From positions 1-64,000 of the forward strand of contig JAGBVR010000008.1 in the NCBI GenBank assembly GCA_017630215.1: a stretch of 64,000 nucleotides of DNA. Reading direction: 5' to 3'. The position numbers and the translations under genes are program-made. This document shows, in pieces, positions 23,129-40,158 of the stretch. Position 1 is the stretch's first letter; the number at the start of each line of letters is the position of its first letter. Source of the stretch: Bacteroidales bacterium. Its GTDB lineage: Bacteria > Bacteroidota > Bacteroidia > Bacteroidales > UBA932. The notes under the pieces were generated by a model. The model was not told the DNA's origin and searched no databases. It saw nothing but the letters and a program-made list of their open reading frames with translations.

Positions 23129-23154
23129 TTGCGACACGCTGTATTCTTAATAGG

Positions 23155-23213
23155 GCGATACTCAGCCAAAATCGATGTGTTTGATGCGATTTTGGCTGAG
23201 TATCGCATGTTTT
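23155..23213 (+). terminator. Terminator after the integrase gene
   Basis: Perfect 20-bp inverted repeat (23155-23174 / 23187-23206; arm GCGATACTCAGCCAAAATCG) with a 12-nt loop, followed by ATGTTTTTC. It isolates integrase transcription from the ATPase gene. Confidence 0.8.
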
Positions 23214-23226
23214 TCGTAAAAATCAC

Positions 23227-23234
23227 TATCTTTG
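23227..23234 (+). promoter_or_regulatory. -7 box of the ATPase gene
   Basis: TATCTTTG fits TAnnTTTG, 16 bp before the ATG at 23251. Confidence 0.45.
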
Positions 23235-23250
23235 AAGAAAAATTAAGACC

Positions 23251-24675
23251 ATGAGAGACAGTATCGTAGGACGTAAGATGGAAAAAGCGGAGTTGGAAAA
23301 GATTTTCAATTCTGCAAAGGCGGAATTTCTGGCAGTTTGCGGTAGACGTAGAGTCGGAAAGACCTTTCTTATCAAAGAATATTTTGAGAAAGAGTTGGTT
23401 TTTTCCGTGTCTGGTCTAGCAAAGGCTAATACGCAAAAGCAGATAAAGAATTTTTATTCTACTCTGAAACTCTATGATTCGTCTTTGACAGAAAAGCCAA
23501 ACGATTGGCTGGATGCCTTCAACCTCTTGATTAAATACCTGACCTCTCTTTCGCAAGAGAGGAAAGTGATCCTTTTGGATGAGCTTCCATGGATGGATAC
23601 CCCAAAGTCTGGGTTTATATCTGCGTTGGAACATTTCTGGAACGGCTGGGCGTCTTCTCGTCGTGATATTGTTCTGATAGTGTGCGGATCTGCAACCTCA
23701 TGGATGATGGACAACCTGATCAATAATCATGGTGGACTTCATAATAGATTGACACGACAGATGTTCCTTGAGCCGTTTACTTTGAATGAAACGGAACAGA
23801 TGCTGGAATCTTTAGGATTCAATCTCTCTCGCTATGAGATTGCTGAGTATTATATGATACTTGGAGGAATTCCTTATTACATGACATTGTTGAATCCAGA
23901 TGAAAGTGTTGCACAGAATATAGATAGACTGATTTTCAAACGTAATGGTGAACTGAAGAATGAGTTTGATAATCTTTATGCTGCTCTCTTCAGAAATTCG
24001 GAAAGCTATATAAAAGTAGCGTCCATCTTAAATTCAAAACGTTCTGGACTTACCAGAAATGAGATAAAGGAAGAAGCGAAGCTGCCTTCTGGAGGCACTC
24101 TCACAAAGATCCTGAAGAATATGGAGTCCTGTGGTTTCATACGCAAATTCAACTGCCTCAGTTTGGGAAAGACGCAGACTCTTTATCAGCTTGTGGATTT
24201 CTTCTCCCTTTTCTATTTCAGATTCATACAGCACGAAACCGGAAACAAGACAAATTATTGGAGTGCAATACAAGGCACGCAGAAGTTCTATGCTTGGGCG
24301 GGACTTGCGTTTGAAAATGTGGCCTTATATCATATCAGTCAGATAAAGCAGGCATTGGGAATCAGCGGGATAGATTCGGAAGAATATACTTGGCGTAAAG
24401 ACTCGAATGAGACAGACGGTGCTCAGATTGACCTACTCATTGATAGAAAGGATAATACTATAAACCTTTGTGAGATGAAGTTCTGCGAAAGTGTATATGA
24501 ACTTAAGGCAGACGAGGAGATGAAGCTTAGAAATAGAATAAGTGCCCTTAGGTCATCTTTGAAGAAAAAGACTAAATCAATCCAGCTTACTATGATTACT
24601 TCTTTTGGCGTTGCCAAAGGTAAGCATTCCGGTATTGTTCAAAGCCAGGTGGCATTGGATGACTTATTTGCTTAA
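23251..24675 (+). CDS. Archaeal-type ATPase with C-terminal PD-(D/E)XK-like domain (DUF234 group)
   Basis: 474 residues. Walker A is GRRRVGKT and Walker B VILLDELPW (STAND/MNS-type P-loop); sensor-like ...VCGSATSWM. A winged-helix part follows (about 250-320). The last ~100 residues contain GAQIDLLIDR...LCEMKF, the D...E-x-K pattern of the nuclease-like DUF234 domain. The family is common in Bacteroidota and on mobile elements, with no established role; a defence or toxin-like function has been considered. It stands alone after the integrase terminator. Confidence 0.8.
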   Translation: MRDSIVGRKMEKAELEKIFNSAKAEFLAVCGRRRVGKTFLIKEYFEKELVFSVSGLAKANTQKQIKNFYSTLKLYDSSLTEKPNDWLDAFNLLIKYLTSLSQERKVILLDELPWMDTPKSGFISALEHFWNGWASSRRDIVLIVCGSATSWMMDNLINNHGGLHNRLTRQMFLEPFTLNETEQMLESLGFNLSRYEIAEYYMILGGIPYYMTLLNPDESVAQNIDRLIFKRNGELKNEFDNLYAALFRNSESYIKVASILNSKRSGLTRNEIKEEAKLPSGGTLTKILKNMESCGFIRKFNCLSLGKTQTLYQLVDFFSLFYFRFIQHETGNKTNYWSAIQGTQKFYAWAGLAFENVALYHISQIKQALGISGIDSEEYTWRKDSNETDGAQIDLLIDRKDNTINLCEMKFCESVYELKADEEMKLRNRISALRSSLKKKTKSIQLTMITSFGVAKGKHSGIVQSQVALDDLFA

Positions 24676-24726
24676 TTCAATGATTCAGAGATAAAGTGAC
24701 TTTAATGTTTAGGACTTGTTGGAATT

Positions 24727-24816
24727 TTGTCCCAAGTCTATCGTATTGTAAATCAGTGGGATAACGGTAGTTTGTCCCAAGTCTTGTCCCAAGTCCGGAA
24801 CAAGTTGTCCCAAGTC
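24727..24816. repeat. Iteron-like array, four copies of TTGTCCCAAGTC
   Basis: Exact 12-bp direct repeats at 24727-24738, 24772-24783, 24784-24795 and 24805-24816, followed by A/T-rich DNA. The whole 286-bp gap (24676-24961) has no supported gene. Its position just before DNA-binding and replication-like genes suggests an initiator-binding origin. Confidence 0.65.
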
Positions 24817-24961
24817 TGAAATTTCATAAGTTTTCAGACTGAAAATTCGTAAACTCGGCAAAATACTCGTAAAATTTTGCGCTTCGGAAACAACCTGTTT
24901 AATTTGCCATGTCAGTTCTCGGATTGACATGGCTTTTATTATGTAAAACACGTTGAAATCT

Positions 24962-25270
24962 ATGGTTATGGGAAGAAATGAATGTGGAAGCAATGCGATG
25001 GTGACAGTGCAGATGACAGTAGAGGAATACCTTGAAATGAAGTCGAGGCAGGAAACGAAGGAGGTGACGACGAAACAGAAGAACCTGGTCTATGGCCTCG
25101 AAGGAATAAAGACCCTCTTCGGCTGCAGCACGACCACGGCGTGGAGAATCAAGAACAGCGAATGGATCCGTCCGGCAATCAGTCAGGTAGGTCGCAAGAT
25201 CGTGGTCGATGCAGACCTGGCATTGGAACTGGCGAACGAGAACACACAGCGTGTAACTTACAGGAAATAG
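24962..25270 (+). CDS. Helix-turn-helix DNA-binding protein (DUF3853-like)
   Basis: 102 residues from the ATG at 24962 (24968 is also possible). The C-terminal half (GLEGIKTLFGCSTTTAWRIK...GRKIVVDADLALELA) is the excisionase-like HTH of DUF3853 proteins, which are usual on Bacteroidetes mobile elements. It probably binds element DNA, as an excision factor or as helper of replication. It is followed by the replication-like gene after 4 bp. Confidence 0.75.
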   Translation: MVMGRNECGSNAMVTVQMTVEEYLEMKSRQETKEVTTKQKNLVYGLEGIKTLFGCSTTTAWRIKNSEWIRPAISQVGRKIVVDADLALELANENTQRVTYRK

Positions 25271-25274
25271 GGCA

Positions 25275-25874
25275 ATGGCAAGAATCAGGACAATCAAGCC
25301 GGAGTTCTGGGAAGATGAGAAACTGGCAAAACTTCCGGTACATGCCCGTCTTCTTTTCATCGGCACGTGGAACTTCGCAGACGACAACGGTGCCTTGCTG
25401 GCGAATCCCGTTCTGATGAAATCCCACATATTTCCATACGAAGATATTGGAATCTCCACAATCTCCGAATGGATTGATATGCTTGTGGAAAACGGGATGC
25501 TCATACGGACAACCTATAATGGCAAGGACTACCTTGTAATCCGGAAGTTCCTTATTCATCAGAAGATCAACCGCAAATCGATCCGCATTAACATCCCTCT
25601 GCCGGTGGTACTTAAAGTGATCGACGAATATAACAAGACTCACGGAGTACTCATTGAGCCATCATTGCAGGAAAGGGAACAGGGAATAGGAAAAAGGAAC
25701 GATGGAACAGGAATGGAGGAAGATATGAAAGAGGAATCGGCCCCCGTCGGGAGACCGATTCATCGTCGTCGCACAAGGAAAGGCTGTGCAATATCGGAGG
25801 TCCTGCAGGAAATCGCCGCCAGTGCCTCCGTTCAGCAAGGAGATGAAAAGGAAAACCTTCAGTCCTTCGAATGA
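25275..25874 (+). CDS. Phage-type replisome-organiser-like protein
   Basis: 199 residues. The N-terminal ~110 residues (MARIRTIKPEFWEDEKLAKL, then LLFIGTWNFADDNG, FLIHQKINR) match the winged-helix N-domain widespread at the start of phage replication proteins. The C-terminal part is charged and low in complexity. It probably recognises the origin or recruits the helicase. Its stop overlaps the next ATG (ATGA). The presence of such a protein supports a phage-satellite-like or replicating phase of the element. Confidence 0.75.
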   Translation: MARIRTIKPEFWEDEKLAKLPVHARLLFIGTWNFADDNGALLANPVLMKSHIFPYEDIGISTISEWIDMLVENGMLIRTTYNGKDYLVIRKFLIHQKINRKSIRINIPLPVVLKVIDEYNKTHGVLIEPSLQEREQGIGKRNDGTGMEEDMKEESAPVGRPIHRRRTRKGCAISEVLQEIAASASVQQGDEKENLQSFE

Positions 25875-26257
25875 AAAAAGAGCAGATACTTCAGATTCTT
25901 ATCTCCGAACCACCGTTAGTCACATTGGCTGACGCCGGAAAATGTCTCGCGAAGCTCGTGACGGAAGTCTATATCGTGAGCGGGGTCCATCGTACCTTGA
26001 CCAAAGAAGCATTTGCGGAAGAAATCACATTCGCAACGGATTACCTTCTGAATGCCATCAGATCAGAGCCACGTTACAGACAGCTGCGTTCCTCTGAACT
26101 CCTTTTCTGCATCTCTGAAGGCCTGAAAGGTCGTTTGTGCGACGATCTCGGATACCCCACCACCAAGACCATCCTCCGCTGGATAGAAGCCTATTCTGTC
26201 CATGAAACTCGCATCCTAGCCCTGAACGAATTCTGGCGGATAGGGAAACGACGGTAA
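25871..26257 (+). CDS. Unknown small protein coupled to the replication gene (128 aa)
   Basis: Not recognised. The product is soluble and mostly helical, with a conserved-looking core RYRQLRSSELLFCISEGLKG and GYPTTKTILRWIEAY. The start overlaps the previous stop by 4 nt, so the two are translationally coupled and probably act together, for example as replication accessory or helicase-loader-like factor (inference). Confidence 0.65.
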   Translation: MKKEQILQILISEPPLVTLADAGKCLAKLVTEVYIVSGVHRTLTKEAFAEEITFATDYLLNAIRSEPRYRQLRSSELLFCISEGLKGRLCDDLGYPTTKTILRWIEAYSVHETRILALNEFWRIGKRR

Positions 26258-26272
26258 ACTGATGATTCAGAC

Positions 26273-26566
26273 TCACTCACAGAACTTCTCGACAAATTCC
26301 TTCGCCTCCGGATACTTCTTGTAATACACCCTCATCATCTCCTGAATCGTGTCGGTAATCCCAGGGCTTGCCTTCGGATGACTTTTGATCCTCCAGACGC
26401 TGAGCGCCTTCAACTCAAGATGAAGTTCTCCGGACACCCCAAGGGTCCTTCTTTTCATCTTCTCCTGTTTCTCCTTTGAAACATTCTTTACCGGGATCTC
26501 TCCCTCACTGTTCACCGCCGAATCCTTTCTCTTCAACGATGCTCGAAAATCCTCTAACTGTCCCAT
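26273..26566 (-). CDS. Small RHH-like DNA-binding protein
   Basis: 97 residues; basic N-terminal half, then a short strand and helices (RRTLGVSGELHLELKALSVW ... ITDTIQEMMRVYYKKYP), the layout of ribbon-helix-helix proteins such as CopG/ParB-type or DUF3408 mobilisation proteins. It is divergent from the following defence block, and its upstream side is a ~200-bp TG-rich repeat tract that could be its operator or a partition site. Confidence 0.55.
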   Translation of the reverse strand: MGQLEDFRASLKRKDSAVNSEGEIPVKNVSKEKQEKMKRRTLGVSGELHLELKALSVWRIKSHPKASPGITDTIQEMMRVYYKKYPEAKEFVEKFCE

Positions 26567-26770
26567 GTGTAAATGTGTTTTTGTGTTAATATGTAAATAT
26601 ACGAATGCACTGATGTGCGTGTGTGTCTATGTGTTAATGTATTTGTGTTCGTGTGTCTTAATGTATCTGTGTGCGTATGTGTTAATGTGCGTGACTATGC
26701 ATGTGCTGATGTGTGAATACGTCAATCTGTCAATGTTCTATTGTGTTTGTGCGCCAGTATATTAGTGTGT
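26567..26770. repeat. TG-rich degenerate repeat tract
   Basis: Low-complexity DNA repeating TGTG/ATGT, with the decamer GTGTTAATGT at 26631-26640 and 26679-26688 and near copies at 26583 and 26653. It begins directly at the start codon side of the RHH-like gene. ORFs through it only encode Val/Cys/Tyr runs. Confidence 0.7.
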
Positions 26771-27042
26771 TCAACAAAGTTATCCAAGGCACTTCCTCCC
26801 TCCAAATTTTACCGCTTTTTCGGCCGAAAGCGCTCCGGAATCACGTCATTTTTCAAGAGTTCAAAACAGATTTTCCAGCCGCGGTTTCATCTGAGCGTTA
26901 GTCCAGATTGCAAGATGTGTGTACGTGTCACGAACACGGGCCAGTTTGTTGTGCTTGTTCTGTAATCTGGCACATCTGTAGAATATATTTGTCAATGATA
27001 AAAAAGACATTGTCTTATGATATAATATTCGAAGCCAATCAT
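26771..27042. other. Non-coding control region with a 12-bp palindrome
   Basis: No supported gene. TTTCGGCCGAAA is a perfect palindrome at 26818-26829 within GCTTTTTCGGCCGAAAGC. With the TG-rich tract it forms ~485 bp of non-coding DNA; an origin, oriT or partition function is possible but nothing specific was recognised. Confidence 0.35.
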
Positions 27043-27050
27043 TATATTTG
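27043..27050 (+). promoter_or_regulatory. -7 box of the defence-like operon
   Basis: TATATTTG matches TAnnTTTG. It ends 28 bp before ATG 27079 but only 1 bp before ATG 27052, favouring 27079 as start of the regulator. Confidence 0.6.
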
Positions 27051-27078
27051 CATGAGATACCAATTAAATGTTAAATCC

Positions 27079-27279
27079 ATGCAAGATTTAAATAGATTGA
27101 AAGTTGTTCTGGTAGAGCAGAAGAAAACTGGCAAATGGCTGGCAGCACAATTGGATAAAGACCCATCAACAGTCTCTAAATGGTGTTCTAATAAGATACA
27201 GCCCTCTTTAGAGATGTTGATTAAGATAGCAGAAGTATTAAATGTGGATGCTAGAGAATTAATAGTCACAACAAAATAG
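27079..27279 (+). CDS. Small XRE-family HTH regulator
   Basis: 66 residues, a stand-alone helix-turn-helix: NRLKVVLVEQKKTGKWLAAQ, then KDPSTVSKWCSNKIQPSLEM and LNVDARELIV. This short regulator type commonly precedes restriction-modification operons in Bacteroidota. The ATG at 27079 is chosen because a -7 box ends at 27050. One base separates its stop from the helicase ATG, so it heads the operon and likely represses it. Confidence 0.85.
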   Translation: MQDLNRLKVVLVEQKKTGKWLAAQLDKDPSTVSKWCSNKIQPSLEMLIKIAEVLNVDARELIVTTK

Positions 27280-27280
27280 T

Positions 27281-30200
27281 ATGGGGACTAATTTTTTTAC
27301 AAATGAAAAAGAAAACACTCTTTTAGAAAAAATTGAAGGGGTGTTCAAATATAAGAAAGTGCATTTCTTTGATGCATTGGTAGGCTATTTTAGGGCGTCT
27401 GGCTATTTTCGGATTCGAAAATTTATTCAGGATACTCCTAAGATTCGCTTCTTGGTGGGTATTAATGTCGATAAACTCACATATCAGGCAAATCAGCAAG
27501 GTCTTTTATTTAACCCTAATGCAGAACAGTCTCAGGAAGAGTTTTTCAATGAAGTGAAAAAAAATATTCAGGAGGCTAAATATGATAAGGAGGTGGAAGA
27601 CGGAATGTATCAATTCATTGAAGATATTGTGTCTGGTAAGATATCAATGAGGATACATCCAAAACAGAATATTCATGCTAAAATATACATATTCAGAGAG
27701 GAAGAGTATCATCCTCATGGTTATGGTTCTGTGATAACTGGCTCAAGTAATTTGACTGAGGCTGGTCTTGAAAAGAACTTTGAATTCAATGTTGAACTTA
27801 GGTATGATGATGATATCAAATATGCAACAGAAACCTTCGAGAGATTATGGGAAGAATCAGTGGAGATTGATTTATCTCATGTCGAGAAACTGAAGAAAGA
27901 TTCTTATTTGAGTACAGATTTTACGCCATATGAGATTTATTTAAAGTTTCTGTTAGAGTATTTCGGCAAGAGTATAGACTTTGATCCGAACTCTGTGTCG
28001 GATTTGCCTAAAGGTTATATGAAGTTGTCATATCAGGTTGATGCTGTAAATGACGGTTATGCAAAAATGATGAAGCATAATGGTTTTTTTCTGTCTGATG
28101 TAGTAGGACTTGGAAAGACCATTGTGTCTGCTTTAATTGCAAAGAAATTTTTCTTTTCGAATGGTTTTCCTACTCATAGATCTCATACATTAGTTATTGT
28201 TCCACCGGCTATGAAAACTAGTTGGGAGGACACGTTGGATGAGTTTAAATTGGATAATGTAACAATTATCACTAATGGAAGCCTTCACAAAATAAAGAAT
28301 CCGGAGCGGTATGATTTGATAATAGTTGATGAGGCCCATAAATTCAGAAGCGATACAGCTTCTATGTACAATGAACTTCAGAAACTGTGTAAAACCAAGG
28401 CGGTTCATAATGATGGAAGTGTGCATGATAAAAAGGTAATTCTTGTGTCAGCAACACCGTTGAATAATCGTCCGGAAGATATAGCAAATCTTGTCTATTT
28501 GTTTCAGGATTCAAAGGAAAGTACCCTGGAAGAGGGAAACTTGCAGAGATTCTTCCGAGAACATATCGACAGGTATCGTAAATTGAAGAAAGAACAAGAT
28601 ATGGAAATTGTCTCGAAAGAGATAAAGTCCATTTATGAAAAGATTCGTATTAAGGTTGTCGAGCCTCTTACAGTAAGAAGAACTCGTACAGATCTGAAAG
28701 AGAATGAGGCTTATAAAAAGGATCTTGATAATCAGGGAGTAACATTTCCAGATGTAAAGCCGCCACATAAAATATACTATCAGTTAGATCCTAATCTGGA
28801 GCACTTGTATGATAAGACTATACAGTATTTGAGTGATAGTGCTGAAGGACTGAAATATTACAGATATCAGGCTATAAAGTATTTGAAGGAAGAGAAGAAA
28901 AGTAAATATAAGAAGGCCGATATGATATCTATTCAATTGGCTGGCATTATGAAGACTCTTCTTGTCAAGAGAATAGATAGTAGCTTTTATGCGTTTAAGC
29001 AGTCTCTGATTCGTTATTACAATGCAAATAGAGTTATGCTGGAGATGTTTAAGAATGGTACAATATACATTGCTCCCAATCTTAAAGTAAATGAATATAT
29101 GATCGAGGATCGTGAAGATGAGCTTATAAAATTGATAGAGGATGCTCGCTATTCTGATCCAACCATTGAGATATGTACTCCGGATGACTTTGTCGAAGGT
29201 TTCGCTGATGGTATTTTGCATGACGACAAGATATTGAGCGATTTGGTTGCAATGTGGGAAGAGATAGATTATGATCCTAAGTTGGAGGTATTCATAAAAA
29301 GAATGGGCAGTGAACTATTCGATAAGTCTATCAACAATGAAGGAAAGTTGTTGGTGTTTTCAGAAAGTAAAGAGACTACCCAATATCTGATGACTTCTTT
29401 GAAAGAGCGTGGATACTCAAGGATACTGATGGTAACAAGTGATAACCGCAACGATGTCATGTCGGTGTTAAAGGAAAACTTTGATGCAAAATATTCAGGT
29501 CCAAGGAAAAACGATTATGACATAGTTATCTCTACAGAAGTATTGGCCGAGGGTGTTAATCTGCATCGTGCAAATGTTATAGTGAATTATGATACACCTT
29601 GGAACTCGACAAGATTGATGCAACGAATCGGGCGTGTCAATAGAATCGGTAGTGTAGCGAAGGAAGTCCATGTTTTCAATTTCTTCCCGACTTCGAAGGT
29701 TAATGATGATATTGAGTTGGAGAAGAAGGCGAAAATGAAACTTTTTGCTTTCCATGCTGCCCTTGGTGAAGATAGTCAGATATACTCGGCAGATGAGAAT
29801 CCGGAGACCTTTGGCCTTTTTGATAAGGATATTGATGAGGACAGGGATGAAAAGTTAAGATACTTGATGTGGCTCAGGAAACTCAAACATGATAACCCAG
29901 AATTGATAAAAAGAATATCTAAACTTCCAATGCGTGCAAGGGTCGGAAGAAAGAGTAAGTTGTTTAAAAATGGCACGATTACCTTTATTCGAAATAAGAG
30001 GCGGGACGCCTTTACATTTGTGCGAGAGGATGGAAGTTCAGAAGAGTTGACTTTTATTGAGGCGGTCAAAGTGTTTGAGGCCAGGATGGACGAGAGGTCG
30101 TTGCCTTTGCACGAAAAACACCATAATCAGGTGTCTTTGGCTTTGTCGATTTTTACTGATATGGAGGAGCAATCAAAGATTCTCCATAGAAAAGCGAATA

Positions 30201-30532
30201 CGGCTCAGGGACCAAACGAGAAAAAGGCGATAGCATACTTGGATGGATTTATGTCAATATCAAATATCTCTGAATATGAGGAAGATATGATAGTTAAGGC
30301 GAAAAGAGCAATTTCCTCTGGAAAGTTCCAACAGTTACAAAGAGATATTAATAAGTTGAAAACGTCAACGAAAAAGACGCCGCTACGGCCAGTTATTCTC
30401 TTAGAAAAACTGATGGAAATATTGACACAATATCCGTTGGAACATGTAACATTCAATGAAAGAGAAGTAATAGTGCCGGTAAAGAAAAAGGACTGCCCAG
30501 AAATAATAATATCAGAAAGTTTTATTTGCTAA
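27281..30532 (+). CDS. PLD-nuclease / SNF2-type helicase fusion (defence-like)
   Basis: 1083 residues. N-terminal phospholipase D-like nuclease domain (about 1-200) with a single HxK site, IHAKIYIF (His ~132) and the block GSSNLTEAGL. Then an SF2/SNF2 helicase: Walker A VVGLGKT (~274), DEAH box IVDEAHKF (~350), motif III LVSATPLNN, motifs V-VI STEVLAEGVNL and LMQRIGRVNRIG (~780). The C-terminal ~200 residues are not recognised. Such proteins translocate on DNA and cleave it in restriction-like systems. It is followed after 10 bp by a DNA methylase gene, so this is probably the motor/nuclease subunit of an R-M-like complex. Confidence 0.85.
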   Translation: MGTNFFTNEKENTLLEKIEGVFKYKKVHFFDALVGYFRASGYFRIRKFIQDTPKIRFLVGINVDKLTYQANQQGLLFNPNAEQSQEEFFNEVKKNIQEAKYDKEVEDGMYQFIEDIVSGKISMRIHPKQNIHAKIYIFREEEYHPHGYGSVITGSSNLTEAGLEKNFEFNVELRYDDDIKYATETFERLWEESVEIDLSHVEKLKKDSYLSTDFTPYEIYLKFLLEYFGKSIDFDPNSVSDLPKGYMKLSYQVDAVNDGYAKMMKHNGFFLSDVVGLGKTIVSALIAKKFFFSNGFPTHRSHTLVIVPPAMKTSWEDTLDEFKLDNVTIITNGSLHKIKNPERYDLIIVDEAHKFRSDTASMYNELQKLCKTKAVHNDGSVHDKKVILVSATPLNNRPEDIANLVYLFQDSKESTLEEGNLQRFFREHIDRYRKLKKEQDMEIVSKEIKSIYEKIRIKVVEPLTVRRTRTDLKENEAYKKDLDNQGVTFPDVKPPHKIYYQLDPNLEHLYDKTIQYLSDSAEGLKYYRYQAIKYLKEEKKSKYKKADMISIQLAGIMKTLLVKRIDSSFYAFKQSLIRYYNANRVMLEMFKNGTIYIAPNLKVNEYMIEDREDELIKLIEDARYSDPTIEICTPDDFVEGFADGILHDDKILSDLVAMWEEIDYDPKLEVFIKRMGSELFDKSINNEGKLLVFSESKETTQYLMTSLKERGYSRILMVTSDNRNDVMSVLKENFDAKYSGPRKNDYDIVISTEVLAEGVNLHRANVIVNYDTPWNSTRLMQRIGRVNRIGSVAKEVHVFNFFPTSKVNDDIELEKKAKMKLFAFHAALGEDSQIYSADENPETFGLFDKDIDEDRDEKLRYLMWLRKLKHDNPELIKRISKLPMRARVGRKSKLFKNGTITFIRNKRRDAFTFVREDGSSEELTFIEAVKVFEARMDERSLPLHEKHHNQVSLALSIFTDMEEQSKILHRKANTAQGPNEKKAIAYLDGFMSISNISEYEEDMIVKAKRAISSGKFQQLQRDINKLKTSTKKTPLRPVILLEKLMEILTQYPLEHVTFNEREVIVPVKKKDCPEIIISESFIC

Positions 30533-30542
30533 AAACTGAATT

Positions 30543-33500
30543 ATGAATTTGCAAGAATTGAAGAAGAAACTATCCTTGCCTTTTGATCTAAATACTTGGA
30601 AGGGGATACTATCGGAATTGTTTTCAAATGTTGTATACTATACTAGTGAAGCCTCTGTAGACGCTAACCTGATTAAACGGGGTGGACAAATTGGTGAAAT
30701 TAAACTGGATGATGGTCACTCATTAGCGGTATTCGACTTTGAAGTAGCTGATAAGATAGATATTTCTCGTAATAGAAAGGGCTTGCGTGATATTGCTGCC
30801 AGATATGTGGATCAGGAGCGTAATCATGGTGCATGGGTCTTTTATCATTCACATTCAAAAAGTGATTATCGTTTGACTTATGTTTCAAAGCAAACATATT
30901 TCTCAAATGATGGGGAGTTAATTGTTAATGAAACTGCTCCAAAGCGCTACACGTTTTTGCTTGGACCTAATGAACCTTGTACAACAGCGGCATATAGACT
31001 GAATGAGTTGCAAGAGTATAAGGATGGTAGCCTTGAATTGAATCATATAACTGCTGCTTTCTCAGTTGAAAGACTCAACAAAGAATTCTTTAAAGAGTAT
31101 AAGCAGCAATATGGTATCTTTCTTTCAGAATTGGGCGAGGATAAAAAAGAGAATAGAGATTATGTGAAGAAGTTACTGGGGCGTCTTGTTTTTATTCAGT
31201 TCTTGCAAAAGAAAGGTTGGATGGGAGTACCAATAACTTCACAGGGATGGAAAGATGGTGATAAGAATTATTTTCTCAATCTTGTAGAGCGTTATCAGGG
31301 GAATGATCGCTTGTTAAGTGATGTGTTGGAATACCTTTTCTTTGACACGTTAAACCGAAGACGTGAAAACGATCTTGCAGATGAAAGATTAGGATCAGGT
31401 ATAAAGATACCATATCTTAATGGTGGTTTATTTGATAAAGATAGTGTCGATAAATTGGATGTTGACTTCCCTTATGTGTTATTCAAGGGGTTGGCAGACT
31501 TTTTTTCAAAATATAACTTCACCATAGATGAAAATGATCCAGATGATAGTGAAGTTGGTATTGATCCAGAAATGTTAGGACATATTTTTGAAAATCTTTT
31601 GGAGGATAATAAGGATAAAGGTGCCTTTTATACACCAAAGGAAATCGTTCAATATATGTGTGAAAATAGCATTGGGCAGTATTTGAAGACTCATTTGGGA
31701 GATTCATTTGAACCTAGTATTTATAAACTCTTGAGAGCCAAATTTGTTGATGAAATAGTTAAAGACAATGCAAAACAAATATATGAATTATTGTGCAAGG
31801 TAAGAGTATGTGACCCTGCCATTGGTTCTGGAGCGTTCCCGATGGGAATATTAAATGTTCTGTTTCAAACAAGGCAATTGCTGTATCCATATGCTAAATA
31901 TAAAGAGAGTTTTTCATTGGCTGGGATAAAACGCGATATCATCCAAAATAACATATTCGGAGTTGATATTGAACAGGGAGCAGTAGATATAGCACGATTG
32001 AGATTTTGGCTTGCACTAGTTGTTGACGAAGAGGTGCCGCAGCCATTGCCAAATCTGGACTATAAGATTATGTGTGGTAATTCGCAGTTGTGCCGCTATG
32101 CTTTAAAAACCCCAATATCTGAAGTTTTTAAGGAATATAATAAGGTTGGTCGTGCAGAGGCTCGGAGGAGAAAGACGGAGTGGGAAGATTTTACATTGGA
32201 GTCATATAAGCAACTAGTAACAGATTATTTGGAAGCTCATGACAATAAATCTGCTTTACGAGAGAAAATAGATGAGATTAAGAGGTGTTTTAAAGTGACA
32301 TTGGCTAATGGAGATATTTTTGAGTTGCAGAAAGCTGAAGCAGAAGTCGAGGATTATGAATTTGTTACAATATTTGGCCATAGTCGAAAAGACGACGATC
32401 CTACAGGGTATGAAAAGGCTAAGCAGAACTTGCAGAAGCAGAGAGAAAAGGTATCTGAGATATTGAATAATCAATTCTATAAAGATTCCTTTGAGTGGCG
32501 TTTTGAGTATCCCCAGTTGTTGGATAGCAAGGGTGATTTTATCGGTTTTGATATCATTATTGCAAATCCTCCTTATCTGAAAGAAGGAAGAATATCCAAA
32601 ACTTTTTTTGAACCATATAAGTCTTCTCCATATTATAAGGGGAAGATGGATATATGGTATCTGTTTGCTTGTAATGGTTTAGATTTACTTAATAAAGATG
32701 GCATACTATGTTTTATTGCCACAAACAACTGGGTGACGAGTTTTGGTGCTAGCAAGTTGAGGGATAAAGTGATGAAGGAGACTCGTATCTGTAATCTTGT
32801 GGACTTTGGTGCAGTTATGATGTTTGAGAGTGCTAGTATTCAGACGATGATAATGATGTTCCAAAAAGATAGCATTTCTGATGACTATAGTTTTGATTAT
32901 CGTCGTTTGAATATGTTTAAGGCTACGGAAAAAGAAGCTATTGCTGCCCTATATAATTATGAGAATCTTTTGGGACTTGAGACATTTAGACCAATAGTAA
33001 GACGTAGTAGTTATGAAGGTAAAAATTTCACATTTAGTCGTAATGGTGCAGTATTAGATGCCATTGCGCAAAATCCTTCTGTGATATATCTTAGAGCTGA
33101 CGAGGTCGCTCAAGGAATAGTGTTTCCTCAAGATTTCTTAAATGCCAAAAATCAGCGTTTATTAGGAGATGGTTATATTGCAGGTGAGGGGGTTTTTGTG
33201 TTGACTAATGGTGACCTAGTGAGACTTGAATTGGACTCAACTGAGATGGAAATAATGCGCCCTTATTATACTACCGAGCAGATATCTAGATATTATTCGA
33301 ATAAGCAGAATGACTTATGGGTAATCTATACAGGGTCAGATTTTAAGAGTCCTGAACGGATGAGAGATTACCCGAGACTAAAAAAACATATAGATAGATT
33401 CTTGTCTATTTTGACTTCAGATAATAGACCATATGGACTACATCGTGCTCGCGAAGAGAGATTCTTTTCAAGACCGAAAGTCGTTGCACTACGAAAGAGT

Positions 33501-34052
33501 GTGGAACGTCCTGCTTTTGCTTATTGTGATTTTGATTGCTATTTGTCACAGACTTTTAATATGATTCAAACCTCTAGGGTTGATATGAGATATTTGACAG
33601 GCTTACTTAATTCAAAACTGGCAGCCTATTGGTTTAAATCTAAAGGAAAAATGCAAGGTGCAAATTATCAGTTAGACAAAGAACCTTTACAACAGTTTCC
33701 GATTGCCGTACCATCCAATGATACCCAAGATATAATAGCAAAATTGGTGGATATGATTATTTTGCTTAATACAACGGATAGGCGTGCCAGCGAACTTGTC
33801 CAGAACTCTTATATTTCATCTGAGATAGAACGACTCATAGATGGTTGCATATACGAGATATATCTTCCTGAAGAAATGGCAGGATTATCCATAACTACCA
33901 TATTGCGCAATTACATAAAGCCCAAAGATACTATTTGTATTAATGACATTTGGGAGTTGTATATGAAGATTGATTCAACTGGAATTATTGAATCATTAAA
34001 TTCATTATCACTTTCAGATTCAGAAGCATTAAGAACTATAATCTTGTCTTAG
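30543..34052 (+). CDS. Eco57I-like adenine DNA methyltransferase with extra N-terminal domain
   Basis: 1169 residues. SAM motif I is CDPAIGSGAF (~423) and catalytic motif IV is ANPPYLKEG (~675), the N6-adenine amino-MTase pattern with a ~250-residue insertion between them. The C-terminal part resembles a target-recognition domain (RYLTGLLNSKLAAYWFK). The N-terminal ~200 residues contain IGEIKLDDG...VFDFEV, possibly a degenerate PD-(D/E)XK nuclease, as in type IIG/ISP enzymes. It is expected to mark host DNA and provide target specificity to the helicase encoded upstream. Confidence 0.85.
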   Translation: MNLQELKKKLSLPFDLNTWKGILSELFSNVVYYTSEASVDANLIKRGGQIGEIKLDDGHSLAVFDFEVADKIDISRNRKGLRDIAARYVDQERNHGAWVFYHSHSKSDYRLTYVSKQTYFSNDGELIVNETAPKRYTFLLGPNEPCTTAAYRLNELQEYKDGSLELNHITAAFSVERLNKEFFKEYKQQYGIFLSELGEDKKENRDYVKKLLGRLVFIQFLQKKGWMGVPITSQGWKDGDKNYFLNLVERYQGNDRLLSDVLEYLFFDTLNRRRENDLADERLGSGIKIPYLNGGLFDKDSVDKLDVDFPYVLFKGLADFFSKYNFTIDENDPDDSEVGIDPEMLGHIFENLLEDNKDKGAFYTPKEIVQYMCENSIGQYLKTHLGDSFEPSIYKLLRAKFVDEIVKDNAKQIYELLCKVRVCDPAIGSGAFPMGILNVLFQTRQLLYPYAKYKESFSLAGIKRDIIQNNIFGVDIEQGAVDIARLRFWLALVVDEEVPQPLPNLDYKIMCGNSQLCRYALKTPISEVFKEYNKVGRAEARRRKTEWEDFTLESYKQLVTDYLEAHDNKSALREKIDEIKRCFKVTLANGDIFELQKAEAEVEDYEFVTIFGHSRKDDDPTGYEKAKQNLQKQREKVSEILNNQFYKDSFEWRFEYPQLLDSKGDFIGFDIIIANPPYLKEGRISKTFFEPYKSSPYYKGKMDIWYLFACNGLDLLNKDGILCFIATNNWVTSFGASKLRDKVMKETRICNLVDFGAVMMFESASIQTMIMMFQKDSISDDYSFDYRRLNMFKATEKEAIAALYNYENLLGLETFRPIVRRSSYEGKNFTFSRNGAVLDAIAQNPSVIYLRADEVAQGIVFPQDFLNAKNQRLLGDGYIAGEGVFVLTNGDLVRLELDSTEMEIMRPYYTTEQISRYYSNKQNDLWVIYTGSDFKSPERMRDYPRLKKHIDRFLSILTSDNRPYGLHRAREERFFSRPKVVALRKSVERPAFAYCDFDCYLSQTFNMIQTSRVDMRYLTGLLNSKLAAYWFKSKGKMQGANYQLDKEPLQQFPIAVPSNDTQDIIAKLVDMIILLNTTDRRASELVQNSYISSEIERLIDGCIYEIYLPEEMAGLSITTILRNYIKPKDTICINDIWELYMKIDSTGIIESLNSLSLSDSEALRTIILS

Positions 34053-34054
34053 CT

Positions 34055-35935
34055 ATGGCCACAATAACCCAGATAGAAATAGATGGATTCAAAGCATTTC
34101 CTAAAAACTTTAAATTGGATTTAAGGACGGGAAAGAATCTCCTCTTATACGGTGAAAATGGTAGTGGAAAATCCTCGTTGTATTATGCTCTACACGCATT
34201 ATTACAAAGTGTTTTTAAAGAAGATAAGGGGCAAAAGTACTTGACTCCAGGAAGGACTGTTGGAGAGAATTTTGTCCCAGAACCAGAAAATCTGATTCAT
34301 ACCTCGAGATTTGAAGATGCAAAAAATAATATTAATACACCCTTTGTTAAAATTACATTTGAAGATGGTAAGATATGGAGACTGGATCAAGGGGGACTAT
34401 CTTCTGAGAATGGCGGTGATGAGAGTGAAATTAGAATACTAAATAAAGACTCTGCATTTATCAATCATTCATATATATCCCGTTTTCATTCAGCGAGAAA
34501 TTCTGAAGAGATTAATTTGTGGAGTGTCTTTTATAAAGATATTCTTCCCTTTCATTTGCCCGTAGGACAAACACAATTTTTGGCCGATTTCTATGACGAG
34601 ATCGTTGTTGAATGTAATGGTGCTAATAAAAGGAATAAGGCACTTCAAAGAAAAATAACTCAGTTTAACACCTTACTGAGTGCTTTAATTAATAGAGTTA
34701 ATGCTAGGGTTAGTATTATATATAATGAGAACTTTCGAAATGAGGGAGATAATAATCTTGAAATAAAGCTAACTTATTTTGGTGATGATGATCAAGAAAA
34801 TATATTAAAAGAACATTTCCATCTGTACTATGGCAATCTTAGAGATAACAAAATAGCGGGACGAGTTAAGTTGTATCCCCCTAGAATAGGGGTTGAAATT
34901 AAAGATGGTGGTGTTTTAATTCATAAGCCTCAATCGCATTTTAATGAGGCGAAATTAACTGCTATTGCATTATCTGTTCGCTTTGCTTGTATGGCAACTG
35001 TCGGGGTGCAATCAGGCTCTTTCCTCGCTCTAGATGATATGCTTATTAGCCTTGATATGAGTAATCGACTAAAAGTTATTAGATTTTTGCTAGATAAAAT
35101 GGCCTCGATGTATAAGATATATATGTTTACTCATGATAGGCTTTTCTATCATACTTTTAAAAGAACTATAGAGACCCAATACGATAAGTCTAAATGGGTG
35201 TTTGGCGCTCTGTATATGAATGATTTAAATACTCCTATTGAACCTGAATTTTTATATGAGAGTACTACAAGAATTGATCTGGCAAGAGAAGCATATGCAC
35301 GCCATGATTATTTTCGTTGTGGCACTTTATTAAGGCAAGAGTTGGAACGAATTCTTAGCGAACTTCTACCTGAATCGTATAGGATAAAAGAAGATCCTGT
35401 GACAAAGGCAACAATTAGTAAAAATTTAGACGAGCAGATATGTTCGCTCGAAGAGTTTTGTAGATGTGAACAAATAGACTTTGAGCCGTTTCTGTATTTA
35501 AAATTATATAAAGATTTGTTTATGAATACAACGGCGCATAATGATATTACATCACCCTTTTATCGCCAAGAAGTGAAATCATCCTTACGCGCAATTGAGA
35601 CTTTATCTCAAATTACTCGTTGTAGAGTAGTTCGGTGTAAAAAAGATCTTTCTTTTCAAATAAAATTAACAGATGGTAAGATAAGCACGATAAGAGTTAG
35701 AATGAGAGAACCATTGCGCTTGCTTGAATATAATGGAGATTGTAGAATATCATACTATAGTAAATGTGAAATACTTAAGGTGGTGAGCAGTGAGGGTGAT
35801 GAAATTATAATGCAAGGTTATAATTCATTGTATAAGGCATACGATGATATGTGTGTTAAGTTTGGAGTACCTCCTGCTTTCAACTTGTTAGATTTATTAT
35901 CGGACAGAGAAGGCCCCTTAAAAGGCCGAATATAA
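34055..35935 (+). CDS. SMC/ABC-type AAA ATPase of the defence-like operon
   Basis: 626 residues. Walker A GENGSGKSS (~33), signature-like block LTAIALSVRFA (~303), Walker B LALDDMLISLD (~323) and H-loop FTHD (~358) define an ABC/SMC-like ATPase with a short coiled-coil insert. Residues ~395-520 are a helical domain with RQELERILSEL and NTTAHND, which may be HEPN-like; the last 100 residues are beta-rich and unknown. The gene starts 2 bp after the methylase stop and is followed by an HNH gene, an order that recalls ATPase + HNH pairs such as Septu. Confidence 0.8.
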   Translation: MATITQIEIDGFKAFPKNFKLDLRTGKNLLLYGENGSGKSSLYYALHALLQSVFKEDKGQKYLTPGRTVGENFVPEPENLIHTSRFEDAKNNINTPFVKITFEDGKIWRLDQGGLSSENGGDESEIRILNKDSAFINHSYISRFHSARNSEEINLWSVFYKDILPFHLPVGQTQFLADFYDEIVVECNGANKRNKALQRKITQFNTLLSALINRVNARVSIIYNENFRNEGDNNLEIKLTYFGDDDQENILKEHFHLYYGNLRDNKIAGRVKLYPPRIGVEIKDGGVLIHKPQSHFNEAKLTAIALSVRFACMATVGVQSGSFLALDDMLISLDMSNRLKVIRFLLDKMASMYKIYMFTHDRLFYHTFKRTIETQYDKSKWVFGALYMNDLNTPIEPEFLYESTTRIDLAREAYARHDYFRCGTLLRQELERILSELLPESYRIKEDPVTKATISKNLDEQICSLEEFCRCEQIDFEPFLYLKLYKDLFMNTTAHNDITSPFYRQEVKSSLRAIETLSQITRCRVVRCKKDLSFQIKLTDGKISTIRVRMREPLRLLEYNGDCRISYYSKCEILKVVSSEGDEIIMQGYNSLYKAYDDMCVKFGVPPAFNLLDLLSDREGPLKGRI

Positions 35936-35946
35936 CAGACCTTCCA

Positions 35947-36843
35947 ATGCATAAATGTATTTTTTGTCACAAAGATGTTTCGATTTCAAAGAGTGTTGAA
36001 CATATCATTCCTGAATCGTTAGGTAACAAGTCTCATGTATTGCCTAAAGGATATGTATGTGATGAGTGTAATAATTACTTTGCAAGGAAAGTAGAAAAAG
36101 AATTATTGGCTATGCCATATTTCATATCAATGAGGTCGAGAAATAACATATTATCGAAAAAAGGTAAGTATGTCAAGAATAAGTTTTTATTTCCAAGTAT
36201 TTTACAAGAGACAGATGGGATTATTGAATTTTCGGAAGATGCAATAGACATATTCTTAGAGAGTCCTGAGGTTTTTGATGCTATAAATAATAAGAAATGC
36301 AATACAATGCTTTCCTTGTATTTACCGGAGCCGGAATATCCGAGTAGAATTGTTTCACGATTCTTAGCTAAATGTGCCTATGAATTTTTTCTCTATCAAA
36401 TGCCGAGAGAGATGTATGATGAATGTGTGGACGAGTTTATGCAAGATACATCACCCAATAAGTCATTAGAGAACATAAGAAAATACGCACGATATGGCGA
36501 AGGTGAGTTTTGGGAATATAGTCAACGACGTATTTTTTCAGAAGGAACATTATGGGTTAATGAAGACTCTTTTGTACCATTTGAAAGACTTCATCAAATG
36601 AAATTGTTTGTAAGAGAAACTTCTCATGAAGGTGATGATAAGATTTACGCAGAAGTATACTATATATTGGAAATGAACGGTGTGGAGTATTCAATTTGCC
36701 TATCAGATACGGATATTTCAGAGTATGATAAATGGGTAGAAGAACATCCTGGACAATCCCCATTAGATGATAATAAAGAGAAACAACTACCTTTCGGAAT
36801 ATATGATGTTAATCCTTTGTTGATTAGAAAAGATACAATATAA
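35947..36843 (+). CDS. HNH endonuclease (HNH_5-like)
   Basis: 298 residues. The N-terminal zinc-bound HNH module is complete: CIFC (4-7), EHIIPESLGN with the catalytic His at ~20, CDECNN and FARKVE. The remaining ~230 residues are not recognised. It lies 11 bp after the ATPase gene and is the last gene of the five-gene run. It is the likely nucleic-acid-cutting effector controlled by the ATPase. Confidence 0.8.
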   Translation: MHKCIFCHKDVSISKSVEHIIPESLGNKSHVLPKGYVCDECNNYFARKVEKELLAMPYFISMRSRNNILSKKGKYVKNKFLFPSILQETDGIIEFSEDAIDIFLESPEVFDAINNKKCNTMLSLYLPEPEYPSRIVSRFLAKCAYEFFLYQMPREMYDECVDEFMQDTSPNKSLENIRKYARYGEGEFWEYSQRRIFSEGTLWVNEDSFVPFERLHQMKLFVRETSHEGDDKIYAEVYYILEMNGVEYSICLSDTDISEYDKWVEEHPGQSPLDDNKEKQLPFGIYDVNPLLIRKDTI

Positions 36844-37001
36844 TTGCAATACGAATATTAATAATCGAATTAATAAAGTTACTCAACGTTGCGATGGGGT
36901 GTCTATCTATAATACCCTTCCAACTAATGCGTCAACTTGGGGGCGACACAAACAAAAGTTTTTGAAACAACTATAAGTAATAATTATAGAATATATATGT
37001 T

Positions 37002-37640
37002 ATGTCTAGGTTAAGCGATCTCTATAAAGCAATGGAAACATTGCGAAAAGAAGGCCTTTCTTTGAATGAGGATCTGGAGAAACAGGTTAGTGAATTGGAA
37101 GAGAATATAATCAAGAAAGAGATTCTTCCGATTGTTACTGAAACTATTGCGCCTGCTTTAAAGCAAGTGCAGCGCGAACTTGTTCTTGTAGTAGATTATG
37201 TGCCAGGGATGCCTATAAGTGTCCATCTTTCTCGTAAAAGAAATTTTGCTGCTGGGATTTCAGATGCTAAGGAAATCTTGCCGGATCCTCAAGTGGAACA
37301 TAGAGAAATCGGCAGTATTGGGCCGAAGAGAAAGGCTGCTCCAGCGACTCGTTTGAGAATTGTATTTTCAGACGGACAGATAATTCAAGAGGATTTGGCC
37401 GCAGAAACCTTTCGTCAATTTGTGATGAAAGTCGGTCCTGAAAAAGTTCGTGCTCTAGGTATGAAGCAGAATAGGGTACCGTTAGTGTCGAATACTTTAG
37501 ATAAGAAGTATCAGAGTTCGCAGAAATCTGTCGGCGGTGGATGGTACCTGATTACATGCAGCAATACTCAAACGAAAAAAAGAGATATAGAGCGTATTGC
37601 AAAGGCTTTGGGAATACAACTTCGGGTTGAGATAATATAG
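37002..37640 (+). CDS. Unknown protein next to the GNAT-PIN gene (212 aa)
   Basis: Not recognised. Residues 1-65 form a coiled coil (RKEGLSLNEDLEKQVSELEE). The C-terminal ~100 residues begin LRIVFSDGQIIQEDLAAETF and end with a GGGWYLITCSNTQTKKRDIE segment, which looks like a conserved DNA- or protein-binding module of mobile-element proteins. It starts a second gene block after a 158-bp gap and lies 7 bp before the GNAT-PIN gene, so the two are probably co-transcribed. Confidence 0.65.
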   Translation: MSRLSDLYKAMETLRKEGLSLNEDLEKQVSELEENIIKKEILPIVTETIAPALKQVQRELVLVVDYVPGMPISVHLSRKRNFAAGISDAKEILPDPQVEHREIGSIGPKRKAAPATRLRIVFSDGQIIQEDLAAETFRQFVMKVGPEKVRALGMKQNRVPLVSNTLDKKYQSSQKSVGGGWYLITCSNTQTKKRDIERIAKALGIQLRVEII

Positions 37641-37647
37641 GTAAATA

Positions 37648-39696
37648 ATGATAGAAACATCACATATAGATTTTAAAAGTCAATTTTATCCCAAGGTTAT
37701 GGCTTTGGGACGAAAGTATGCTTCGTCTTTGGGCTTTATGCCGGAAGGGGGATTCGAAGACCATGTGAGGAAACAAGGTGTTATTGTTGCTCATGAGGGA
37801 GATTCGTTATGTGGATATGTGATGTATAGAGAAGTCCCTCGTCATTCTAGAATAAGTATTGTACATTTATGTGTAGATGATGCGTTTCGTGGCCAGAAGG
37901 TATCTAAACTTCTGTTGGATTCGTTGCGCCAAGAGTATGAGACTTCATACAGCTTTAATGGAATTTCTTTGAACTGCCGAGATGACTATGAATATGCAAC
38001 CAGGATTTGGCAGAGATACGGATTTACACCGAGAAATAAAATACGTAGTCGTAGTCAAGAAGAACATTATTTGACATTCTGGTGGTATAGCTTTAATAAG
38101 CCAGATCTGTTCTCGCAGATAGTTGCGGATTCAACGAAGATAAAAGCTTTGTTGGATGCAAATGTTATAATGAAGCTTCGAGATGCAGGGGATGTTAAAT
38201 TCCTTCCAGCAGAAGACCCTACTTGCTTGTTGGCAGACTGGTTAGTTGATGAGACGGAATTCTACTATGCTTCCGAGATGTTCAATGAAATCAGTAGAGA
38301 TACAGATAATCAAAGAGTAAAGAGAACAAAGGGATTCTTGAATAGTTTTCAAGAGGCGAGTCATAACATAGAGGAAAGGAAGTCTGTTTCTATTTCATTA
38401 TCACAGATAATGACCGGAATTACCGAGAATGATATTTCTGACAGAGAACAGGTTGCAACTTGTATAGTTTCTGATATAAAATATTTTCTAACCTTTGACG
38501 AAGGTATTCTTGAACATAGAGACTCTATTGAGCAGGAATACAATGTGAAGATCATGACTCCGCAAGAGTTTACCATAACTTTGGATCAGATTCTTCATGA
38601 GGACTCATATTCTCCTAGACAGATTTCTGGTGCAGTGTCTCATACTATATCAAAACTGTCACCAGGTGAGGTAAAAACCTGTGCGGAACTATTTTGGTAT
38701 AATAGATCTCAAGAAAAGAAAAAAGATTTCATCAATGCCTTCTATCAGATATTAAATGAAAATCAATGTGTTGTTGAGAGCATTAAGAAAGATGATGAGT
38801 ATGTTGCTTTGTATGCAACGAAAAGAGATGGTGAGGTCGTTTCTATTCCATTGCTACGACTTGTTGAGTCTCAGAATGAAATAACTATCCTTATGGGATT
38901 GATGTCTCAACTTATAAATCAGGCGATTGAGTCAAGAGCAACCAAGATTATAATTGAAGAAGTGAGTTTGCGAGAGAAGCATAGAGAAGTTTTATACAGG
39001 TTTGGTTTTCTTAATCGTGAAGGAAAACTTCAGAAATTGATCCTTCGAGGAAATGTTACTAAGGCTCAACTTTCGCAATATTGTCTGGATAATAATGTGC
39101 AAATTGATGTTCCAGATCTGAACAATGATATAAGATTGTTTGAATTTGAACGCTTTTTATTCCCATTAAAGATATCTGATCTTAATATACCATGTTATGT
39201 GATTCCAATCAAACCTAAGTGGGCTCAGGAATTGTTTGATACCAAAGAAGCAGGTTCAATGTTATTTGGCGTTGACATAACGCGTTTGTGGAATGTTGAG
39301 AATGTGTATTACAGAAGTGCAAGAACGTTGACGGAAGTAGTGCCAGCAAGGATTCTTTGGTATGTTAGTGCAGATAAACACTATAGTCGCAATAAGGGTG
39401 TTGTTGCCACGTCTTATCTAGAGGAAGTGATTACTGGATTACCAAAGGATTTGTTTAGAAAGTTCAAACACTATGGGATATACAAATGGGAAGATATATA
39501 TAAATTATGCGGTGCTGATATAAATAAACCTATTCGTGCAATAAGGTTTGGTCACACGGAGGTTTTTAATAGTATTGTGCCATATAAAGATTTGCAGAAA
39601 ATCATGGGAAAGAAAAACACTTTCCAAAGTCCGGTAGAGGTCTCAGAAGAAGTGTTTAATGAGATATATAAACTGAAAGATGTCAAAAGATTATAA
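37648..39696 (+). CDS. Multidomain GNAT - PIN - PUA-like protein
   Basis: 682 residues. 1-150: GNAT acetyltransferase fold (VHLCVDDAFRGQKVSKLLLD, motif A with Ser in place of the usual Gly/Ala). About 165-315: PIN-like RNase (LLDANVIMKLR; EMFNEISRD; FLTFDEGILEHRD) with the expected acidic residues. About 420-480: a second GNAT-like end (EVLYRFGF). The last ~130 residues (RILWYVSADKHYSRNKGVVA...GHTEVF) resemble an ASCH/EVE PUA-like domain. The next gene encodes an ASCH protein overlapping by 17 bp. Together they may modify or cleave RNA, possibly tRNA; function is inferred. Confidence 0.75.
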   Translation: MIETSHIDFKSQFYPKVMALGRKYASSLGFMPEGGFEDHVRKQGVIVAHEGDSLCGYVMYREVPRHSRISIVHLCVDDAFRGQKVSKLLLDSLRQEYETSYSFNGISLNCRDDYEYATRIWQRYGFTPRNKIRSRSQEEHYLTFWWYSFNKPDLFSQIVADSTKIKALLDANVIMKLRDAGDVKFLPAEDPTCLLADWLVDETEFYYASEMFNEISRDTDNQRVKRTKGFLNSFQEASHNIEERKSVSISLSQIMTGITENDISDREQVATCIVSDIKYFLTFDEGILEHRDSIEQEYNVKIMTPQEFTITLDQILHEDSYSPRQISGAVSHTISKLSPGEVKTCAELFWYNRSQEKKKDFINAFYQILNENQCVVESIKKDDEYVALYATKRDGEVVSIPLLRLVESQNEITILMGLMSQLINQAIESRATKIIIEEVSLREKHREVLYRFGFLNREGKLQKLILRGNVTKAQLSQYCLDNNVQIDVPDLNNDIRLFEFERFLFPLKISDLNIPCYVIPIKPKWAQELFDTKEAGSMLFGVDITRLWNVENVYYRSARTLTEVVPARILWYVSADKHYSRNKGVVATSYLEEVITGLPKDLFRKFKHYGIYKWEDIYKLCGADINKPIRAIRFGHTEVFNSIVPYKDLQKIMGKKNTFQSPVEVSEEVFNEIYKLKDVKRL

Positions 39697-40138
39697 ATAC
39701 TTATTTGTTTCAATAAAACCCGAATTCACTGAGAAGATACTTTCTAAAGAAAAATCTATTGAACTTAGAAAGGTTCGCCCTCATGTGGTATCAGGAGATT
39801 ACGTGATTATTTATGCTTCAGCCCCTGTTATGGGGGTCGTCGGGATTGCACGCGTTAAACATATTATTGAAATGACACCTTCAGAATTGTGGGAGAAGTA
39901 TTCGACAAGACTTGGGATTGATAAACAAAGATTTGATGATTATTATAACGGTTTATCTAGGGCAATAGGAATAGAATTAGATTCAGTTCGCCCCCTGTCT
40001 TCTCCAATATCCTTAACTGAGCTGAGAGGTGTTGATCCATCTTTTCATCCCCCTCAGATATATCGATATGTTACGAGTGAGCAGATATGTTCGGTGTTAT
40101 CACGGTATTTTCAGACCTTGAAGGATGTCAATAGGTAG
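39680..40138 (+). CDS. ASCH (PUA-like) domain protein
   Basis: 152 residues. ASCH features: KPEFTEKILSKEKSIELRKV at the start, then GDYVIIYASAPVMGVVGIAR, and the closing SFHPPQIYRYV. ASCH domains bind RNA or nucleotides. The ATG lies 17 bp inside the end of the GNAT-PIN gene, so translation is coupled. It may supply RNA recognition for, or counteract, its larger partner. Confidence 0.8.
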   Translation: MSKDYKYLFVSIKPEFTEKILSKEKSIELRKVRPHVVSGDYVIIYASAPVMGVVGIARVKHIIEMTPSELWEKYSTRLGIDKQRFDDYYNGLSRAIGIELDSVRPLSSPISLTELRGVDPSFHPPQIYRYVTSEQICSVLSRYFQTLKDVNR

Positions 40139-40158
40139 ATTAAAGTGGTGTTAAATAT

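Follow-up and report, generated by a model that had tools for sequence, protein, structure and literature searches.

Positions 1 to 64,000 of contig JAGBVR010000008.1 (GenBank assembly GCA_017630215.1; a Bacteroidales bacterium placed in UBA932), hereafter the window, contain an operon that joins a PLD-SNF2 nuclease-helicase, an adenine methylase, and an ABC ATPase with a HEPN-like domain to an HNH-GNAT-ASCH gene set. We think it somewhat probable that this operon is a two-layer defense against invaders, built from an ATP-dependent restriction-modification-like core, a PrrC-like ABC-HEPN guard, and an appended HNH-GNAT-ASCH module. The first layer is read from domains and the second from fold and motif, and we infer all functional steps, those drawn from neighborhood included. 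An earlier sequence-only reading had proposed a composite restriction-like defense operon of no described type, and both parts of that proposal are supported by what follows. The genes of the operon, in order, with lengths in amino acids (aa), are these.

27079-27279, + strand: HTH regulator of XRE/Cro type, 66 aa (PF01381, 2.7e-11; ATG start at 27079)
27281-30532, + strand: PLD (HKD) nuclease-SNF2 helicase fusion, 1083 aa (PF13091, PF00176, PF00271)
30543-34052, + strand: Eco57I-type N6-adenine DNA methylase with TaqI-like specificity domain, 1169 aa (PF07669, 1.3e-33; PF12950)
34055-35935, + strand: ABC (SMC/RecF-like) ATPase with C-terminal HEPN-like domain, 626 aa (AAA_23; ABC head at aa 2-403)
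35947-36843, + strand: HNH_5 endonuclease, accessory (PF14279, 1.3e-11)
37002-37640, + strand: 212-aa protein matching no family in Pfam, PADLOC, or NCBIfam
37648-39696, + strand: GNAT protein with probable PIN domain, PADLOC PDC-M11A (PF00583; PDC-M11A, 6.9e-18)
39680-40138, + strand: ASCH/EVE-like protein, PADLOC PDC-M11B (9.2e-33; ASCH slightly under the Pfam cutoff)
40159-41139, + strand: RhuM protein, PADLOC PDC-S05 (PF13310, 1.2e-107; PDC-S05, 2.6e-141)

The first five genes are intact open reading frames (ORFs) whose coordinates confirm the 1-, 10-, 2-, and 11-bp gaps of the sequence-only reading, and Pfam upheld its domain names (HTH, PLD-SNF2, Eco57I-like methylase, ATPase, and HNH), with the SMC_N match of the ATPase itself falling slightly under the cutoff. 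Its label of SMC ATPase was right for the ABC head, which is SMC/RecF-like, but missed the HEPN-like domain behind it. The five genes it had grouped at 27079 to 36843 hold as a unit, but the end does not: GNAT and ASCH genes lie 3' of HNH in all three loci with this arrangement (the window and two Prevotella loci, L037 and L002), and an end at 36843 is therefore too early.

Searching for the PLD-SNF2 protein (E ≤ 1e-40) in 296 genomes of the phylum and 299 of the family found it in 34 and 20 genomes, respectively, with the window's own genome (G000) counted in both. We read 51 of the 55 helicase places, omitting G482, G020, G239, and G104:C350 (frames of 381-605 aa), and a methylase lay 3' of the helicase in 45 of these 51. 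Among the six loci where the profile found no methylase, L075, L085, and L086 end less than 600 bp from the helicase, while L082, L102, and L103 do not. Judged by this distribution, the PLD-SNF2 and methylase pair is a widespread core. Both proteins keep their catalytic residues: in the helicase, H132 and K134 are each present in 50 of 51 homologues and K279, D350, E351, and R785 in all 51, and the methylase N675-P676-P677 is found in 40/40 of the aligned methylases with letters at that place (45 methylases in total). When the methylase N-terminus was examined for signs of a nuclease motif, none of the positions ahead of 182 reached 95% conservation. A methylase with intact catalytic motifs adjoining a nuclease-helicase is a feature of ATP-dependent restriction-modification.

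What follows the pair varies. In the 37 loci classed as complete (L063 is among them, though its methylase is cut by the end of the contig), an ABC ATPase lies 3' of the pair in 8, two of them broken, and the pair stands without it in the other 29; elsewhere the third position is held by KAP NTPases matching PifA (L060 and L061). On this comparison the ABC ATPase is an exchangeable third gene of PLD-SNF2/methylase loci. Inverted extra methylase copies lie near the pair in 8 of the 37, and probably confer phase-variable DNA specificity. Such copies were seen in L038, L066, L069, L087, L091, L096, L098, L099, and L101; a recombinase stands beside L069 and L087 (by eye), and one of the Mpi type is annotated in Prevotella nigrescens L038. 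We do not claim that ABC-HEPN genes and inverted copies exclude each other: each occurs in 8 of the 37 loci and the two never together, with about 1.7 joint occurrences expected.

From the side of the ATPase the linkage is closer. Counting strong matches only (E < 1e-19), the gene lies directly behind a methylase of this kind in 7/7 genomes, and among three weaker matches whose surroundings were read, a methylase is present in L033 and L034 and absent from L036. In the 299 family genomes the ATPase had a match in 7 (G000 included), short and partial apart from that in G012. Two copies of the three-gene core lie near phage genes, at 716-17268 of L029 (terminase and major head protein) and 834-16974 of L046 (terminase and endolysin), and because they adjoin such genes, phages or prophages carry the core.

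In a low-confidence structure model, the C-terminal domain of the ATPase (about aa 400-563) resembles HEPN ribonucleases in fold. The region bears an R-x3-E ... N-x3-H motif in which R427, E431, N491, and H495 are invariant, with fragments (L033, L034, L036, and L074) omitted from the alignments; the Arg-x3-Glu ... His triad occurs in 17/17 distinct sequences, and all four residues are kept down to about 21-22% identity. The spacing from Glu to His is longer than published, and is 59 in the L055 ATPase by alignment (a pattern reading of 82 was dropped). A better structure model placed ABC heads among the fold matches listed and spoke neither for nor against HEPN. Searching the PDB with a profile of the C-terminal half returned Rad50, no HEPN protein by name, and weak matches to NEQ131. 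AAA_13 (PF13166) had no match in the window ATPase at E up to 0.1, and its match in a relative, L044 (1.2e-4), was under the cutoff. Taking motif and predicted fold together, the HEPN-like domain seems a likelier second effector than the HNH protein. The window's genome also encodes a separate AAA_13 (RloC-type) protein at G000:C6:25968-28181 (L048), in which RRIYE and NEGSH motifs occur.

The order PLD-SNF2, methylase, ATPase, HNH, GNAT, ASCH recurs, with inserts, in both Prevotella loci. In Prevotella sp. oral taxon 299 (L037), identities to the window proteins are 62% (HTH), 72% (PLD-SNF2), 60% (methylase), 44% (ATPase), 49% (HNH), 41% (GNAT), and 54% (ASCH), and an AlbA_2 gene is inserted between helicase and methylase. 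In Prevotella sp. RGIG3222 (L002) they are 36% (PLD-SNF2, partial), 56% (methylase), 59% (ATPase), 51% (HNH), 46% (GNAT), and 59% (ASCH), again with one gene inserted between helicase and methylase. The five-gene order proposed by the sequence-only reading was thus found with its HTH gene in L037, and in L002 only from helicase to HNH, in neither case free of an insert. Because PLD-SNF2, methylase, ATPase, and HNH recur in this order in two further loci, the arrangement in the window is, on this evidence, not chance. The L002 helicase (67-1827) is interrupted by the contig end; it seems to have been exchanged, because its identity to the window's helicase is far under that of the methylase and ATPase. 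HTH homologues lie 5' of the helicase gene in L037, L038, and L039, and the HTH protein is likely the operon regulator.

The HNH gene keeps different company. HNH, GNAT, and ASCH genes of the operon type were confined to the window, L002, and L037 among 62 loci scanned, while the ATPase profile marked more of the 62 than these three; no HNH match was present in L027-L036 or L043-L044. HNH homologues face PDC-M11A/B pairs (E about 1e-118 and 1e-30) on alphaproteobacterial plasmids, from Rhizobium WSM4643 (L104 7998-11666; 34% identity) and Azospirillum thermophilum (L106 8001-11615; 26% identity), where the ASCH protein includes an HTH part and the ATPase search found nothing. An Agrobacterium HNH locus yielded no PDC-M11A/B pair. 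Because HNH stands beside PDC-M11A/B on two unrelated plasmids that lack an ATPase match, GNAT/ASCH is a likelier partner for it than the ATPase, and HNH-GNAT-ASCH may be a module in its own right. Its parts also occur elsewhere: a GNAT gene alone lies 3' of the ATPase in viral contig L047 (1787-3829; 28% identity), GNAT and ASCH are paired in G323 (L109 8237-10759), and GNAT(-PIN) with ASCH/EVE neighbors occurs among other restriction genes in Calothrix (L107 7983-10637); in Nostoc (L108 450-3074) the neighbor is an EVE gene. PDC-M11 terms are absent from the main text of PMC10250203.

The nine operon proteins assembled into no complete described system from the PADLOC and NCBIfam matches listed, which for several of them (RhuM included) are the best 25 PADLOC matches. 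DISARM includes SNF2 helicase, PLD, and N6-methylase domains, as does this operon, which differs in having PLD fused to SNF2. The suggestion that the operon holds DISARM components is not supported: the DrmD model NF038317 scored 142.5 bits against a cutoff of 610 for the helicase, no DrmB or DrmC is among the PADLOC matches listed, and the DrmA model matches only a segment of the helicase (63.8 bits). SauUSI is of the PLD type and is not known to have a methylase; like CglI/NgoAVII, it resembles the operon in joining a PLD-type nuclease (RE_NgoFVII, PF09565, is above cutoff here) to an SF2 helicase. The source passages on SauUSI describe cleavage of methylated targets, and SauUSI was not among the best 60 of 74 PDB matches of the operon helicase. 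CglI/NgoAVII are described in part of PMC4267653 as three-gene systems that include a methylase, but their nuclease and helicase are separate proteins, whereas those of the operon are fused, of SNF2 type, and partnered by an Eco57I-type adenine methylase. As far as these sources go, the nuclease-helicase principle is already known from CglI/NgoAVII and SauUSI. The helicase, methylase, and ATPase trio also recalls the Hma/DUF499 systems related to BREX, as portrayed in sections of PMC8565338, and passages of PMC12839542 give type-2 BR an HKD-helicase fusion. The operon differs in its ABC-HEPN-like ATPase; DUF499 and DUF3780 had no Pfam match (E up to 0.1) in the nine proteins, and NF042964 reached 133 bits against a cutoff of 1100. 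For the PADLOC model C3a139 ("HKD+Snf2"), which matches the operon at 8e-47, we found no describing paper.

The closest parallel for the ATPase is found in the anticodon nucleases PrrC/RloC. The likeness lies in an ABC ATPase head with a C-terminal HEPN-like domain (suggested here by a low-confidence model), the R-x3-E ... H motif, and, from the portions of PMC2610378 and PMC3710099 consulted, coupling to restriction-modification-like genes with RhuM close by. The operon differs in pairing the ATPase with PLD-SNF2 and an Eco57I methylase rather than hsdMSR, and in its RecF/SMC-like head, lack of an AAA_13 match, and longer Glu-His spacing. Passages of PMC3710099 describe PrrC as kept inactive by its restriction-modification system and freed by a phage anti-restriction peptide, and place PrrC-like, restriction-modification, and RhuM genes together in one locus. 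Under the two-layer reading, the methylase would recognize its target through the TaqI-like domain and mark host DNA, and the PLD-SNF2 protein would translocate along unmarked DNA and cleave it with its HKD site. The ABC ATPase would be kept silent by, or together with, this complex; were the first layer blocked, or DNA ends to accumulate, the HEPN domain would cut RNA (tRNA being the likeliest target, by analogy with PrrC/RloC), and translation would halt. HNH, GNAT(-PIN), and ASCH appear to form one appended accessory module.

Three other explanations account for parts of these data. The pair could be a plain restriction-modification system and the ABC-HEPN protein a regulator or a sensor of RNA or DNA with an inactive HEPN-like domain, which we consider unlikely. 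The 29 loci holding the pair without the ATPase fit this explanation, as does the absence of the canonical Rx4-6H arginine from the HEPN-like domain, and part of PMC3710099 proposes HEPN domains without the canonical motif as RNA binders; however, invariance of four residues at such low identity goes beyond what a binding fold needs. Somewhat more doubtful is the proposal of the sequence-only reading that methylation-guided restriction is combined with a Septu-like effector, in which the ATPase activates the adjoining HNH protein to degrade DNA. The two genes are 11 bp apart in the window and adjacent in L002 and L037, as ATPase and HNH genes adjoin in Septu; OLD-ABC and HNH dyads near BREX loci appear in the portion of PMC12839542 consulted, and a retron-IA complex with an HNH nuclease (9n69) is among the fold matches of the ATPase head. 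Unlike in Septu, however, HNH is not conserved together with the ATPase: it occurs in only 3 of the 62 loci, and its plasmid homologues adjoin GNAT/ASCH-type pairs instead. The best PtuA model (28.8 bits) covers only the P-loop segment of the ATPase, aa 2-64, and the HNH protein matches neither PtuB nor any other PADLOC family at 0.01 or 0.001. These results support neither the Septu-like assignment nor the ATPase-HNH pair as second effector.

The ABC-HEPN protein might instead be an RNase toxin silenced by the methylase and helicase, forming an addiction module that stabilizes its island rather than defending against phage. Residence on a tRNA-Met island, and elsewhere beside the phage head and packaging genes of L029 and L046, would suit such a module, but a large energy-dependent helicase-nuclease would be a costly antitoxin, and the neighbors here are other defense candidates (PDC-S27, PDC-M11, and PDC-S05); we regard this explanation as improbable.

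Beyond the two-layer reading itself, we advance more tentatively, as a possibility we would not yet bet on, that PLD-SNF2/adenine-methylase systems of bacteria and phages have their own dedicated yet exchangeable guard in an undescribed ABC-HEPN ribonuclease family, stacked here with HNH-GNAT(-PIN)-ASCH to give up to four nucleases (PLD, HEPN, HNH, and PIN). If so, the PrrC principle of an RNA-cutting guard on a DNA restriction enzyme would extend beyond type I systems, the guard plugging, cartridge-like, into a different, widespread family, in a slot that PifA-like KAP NTPases can also occupy. The guard hypothesis is directly testable by point mutants within one operon. We found no description of PLD/SNF2/methylase systems with HEPN or in phase-variable versions, in a literature that did not take in a 2020 survey of ABC-ATPase conflict systems, probably the one cited in PMC12839542; within that same literature, the pairing of an ABC-HEPN family with PLD-SNF2/methylase and the stacked operon form appear new.

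The operon sits in a complete integrative island of about 19.9 kb (21472-41418) at a tRNA-Met gene, whose other features are as follows.

21472-21515, no strand assigned: attL-like 44-bp direct repeat, which copies the tRNA-Met gene's 3' part and exactly repeats 41375-41418
21686-23128, + strand: island tyrosine integrase (PF00589, 1.7e-9; PF13102, 2.2e-8)
23251-24675, + strand: ATPase, PADLOC defense candidate PDC-S27, island cargo outside the operon (PADLOC, 1.4e-198; PF01637)
27043-27050, + strand: possible Bacteroidetes-type -7 promoter element, TAnnTTTG (pattern match)
41375-41418, no strand assigned: attR-like 44-bp repeat, contained in the tRNA-Met gene (41375-41449, - strand)

G+C content is 38.6% in 21686-41139 versus 47.1% in the remaining window. 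A same-genus genome, G614 (L137), offers an empty site, where 73 bp of the left flank (21399-21471) lead directly into an intact tRNA-Met gene, with tRNA-Gln, deformylase, and ygbB genes beyond it. From the tRNA-Met repeats, the integrase, the G+C drop, and this empty site, the operon is therefore island cargo, alongside the PADLOC candidates PDC-S27, PDC-M11A/B, and PDC-S05. The source genome is 57.8% complete in 50 contigs, and its closest named matches are Prevotella.

The possible promoter element matches the Bacteroidetes -7 consensus; the pattern has 10 matches on the + strand of 26201-41700, this one among them. The mechanical ORF of the HTH gene begins further upstream, at TTG 26908. 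Within the 3' half of the operon, a 158-bp gap separates HNH from the 212-aa gene, and the GNAT and ASCH genes overlap by 17 bp; the PIN part of the GNAT protein was assigned by eye, Pfam matching the GNAT part only. RhuM looks like a separate appended accessory module. The 212-aa gene is probably inserted cargo, and homologues of it occur in L002 (12194-12835), in L039 (20613-21269, directly 3' of a TIR protein), and in L091.
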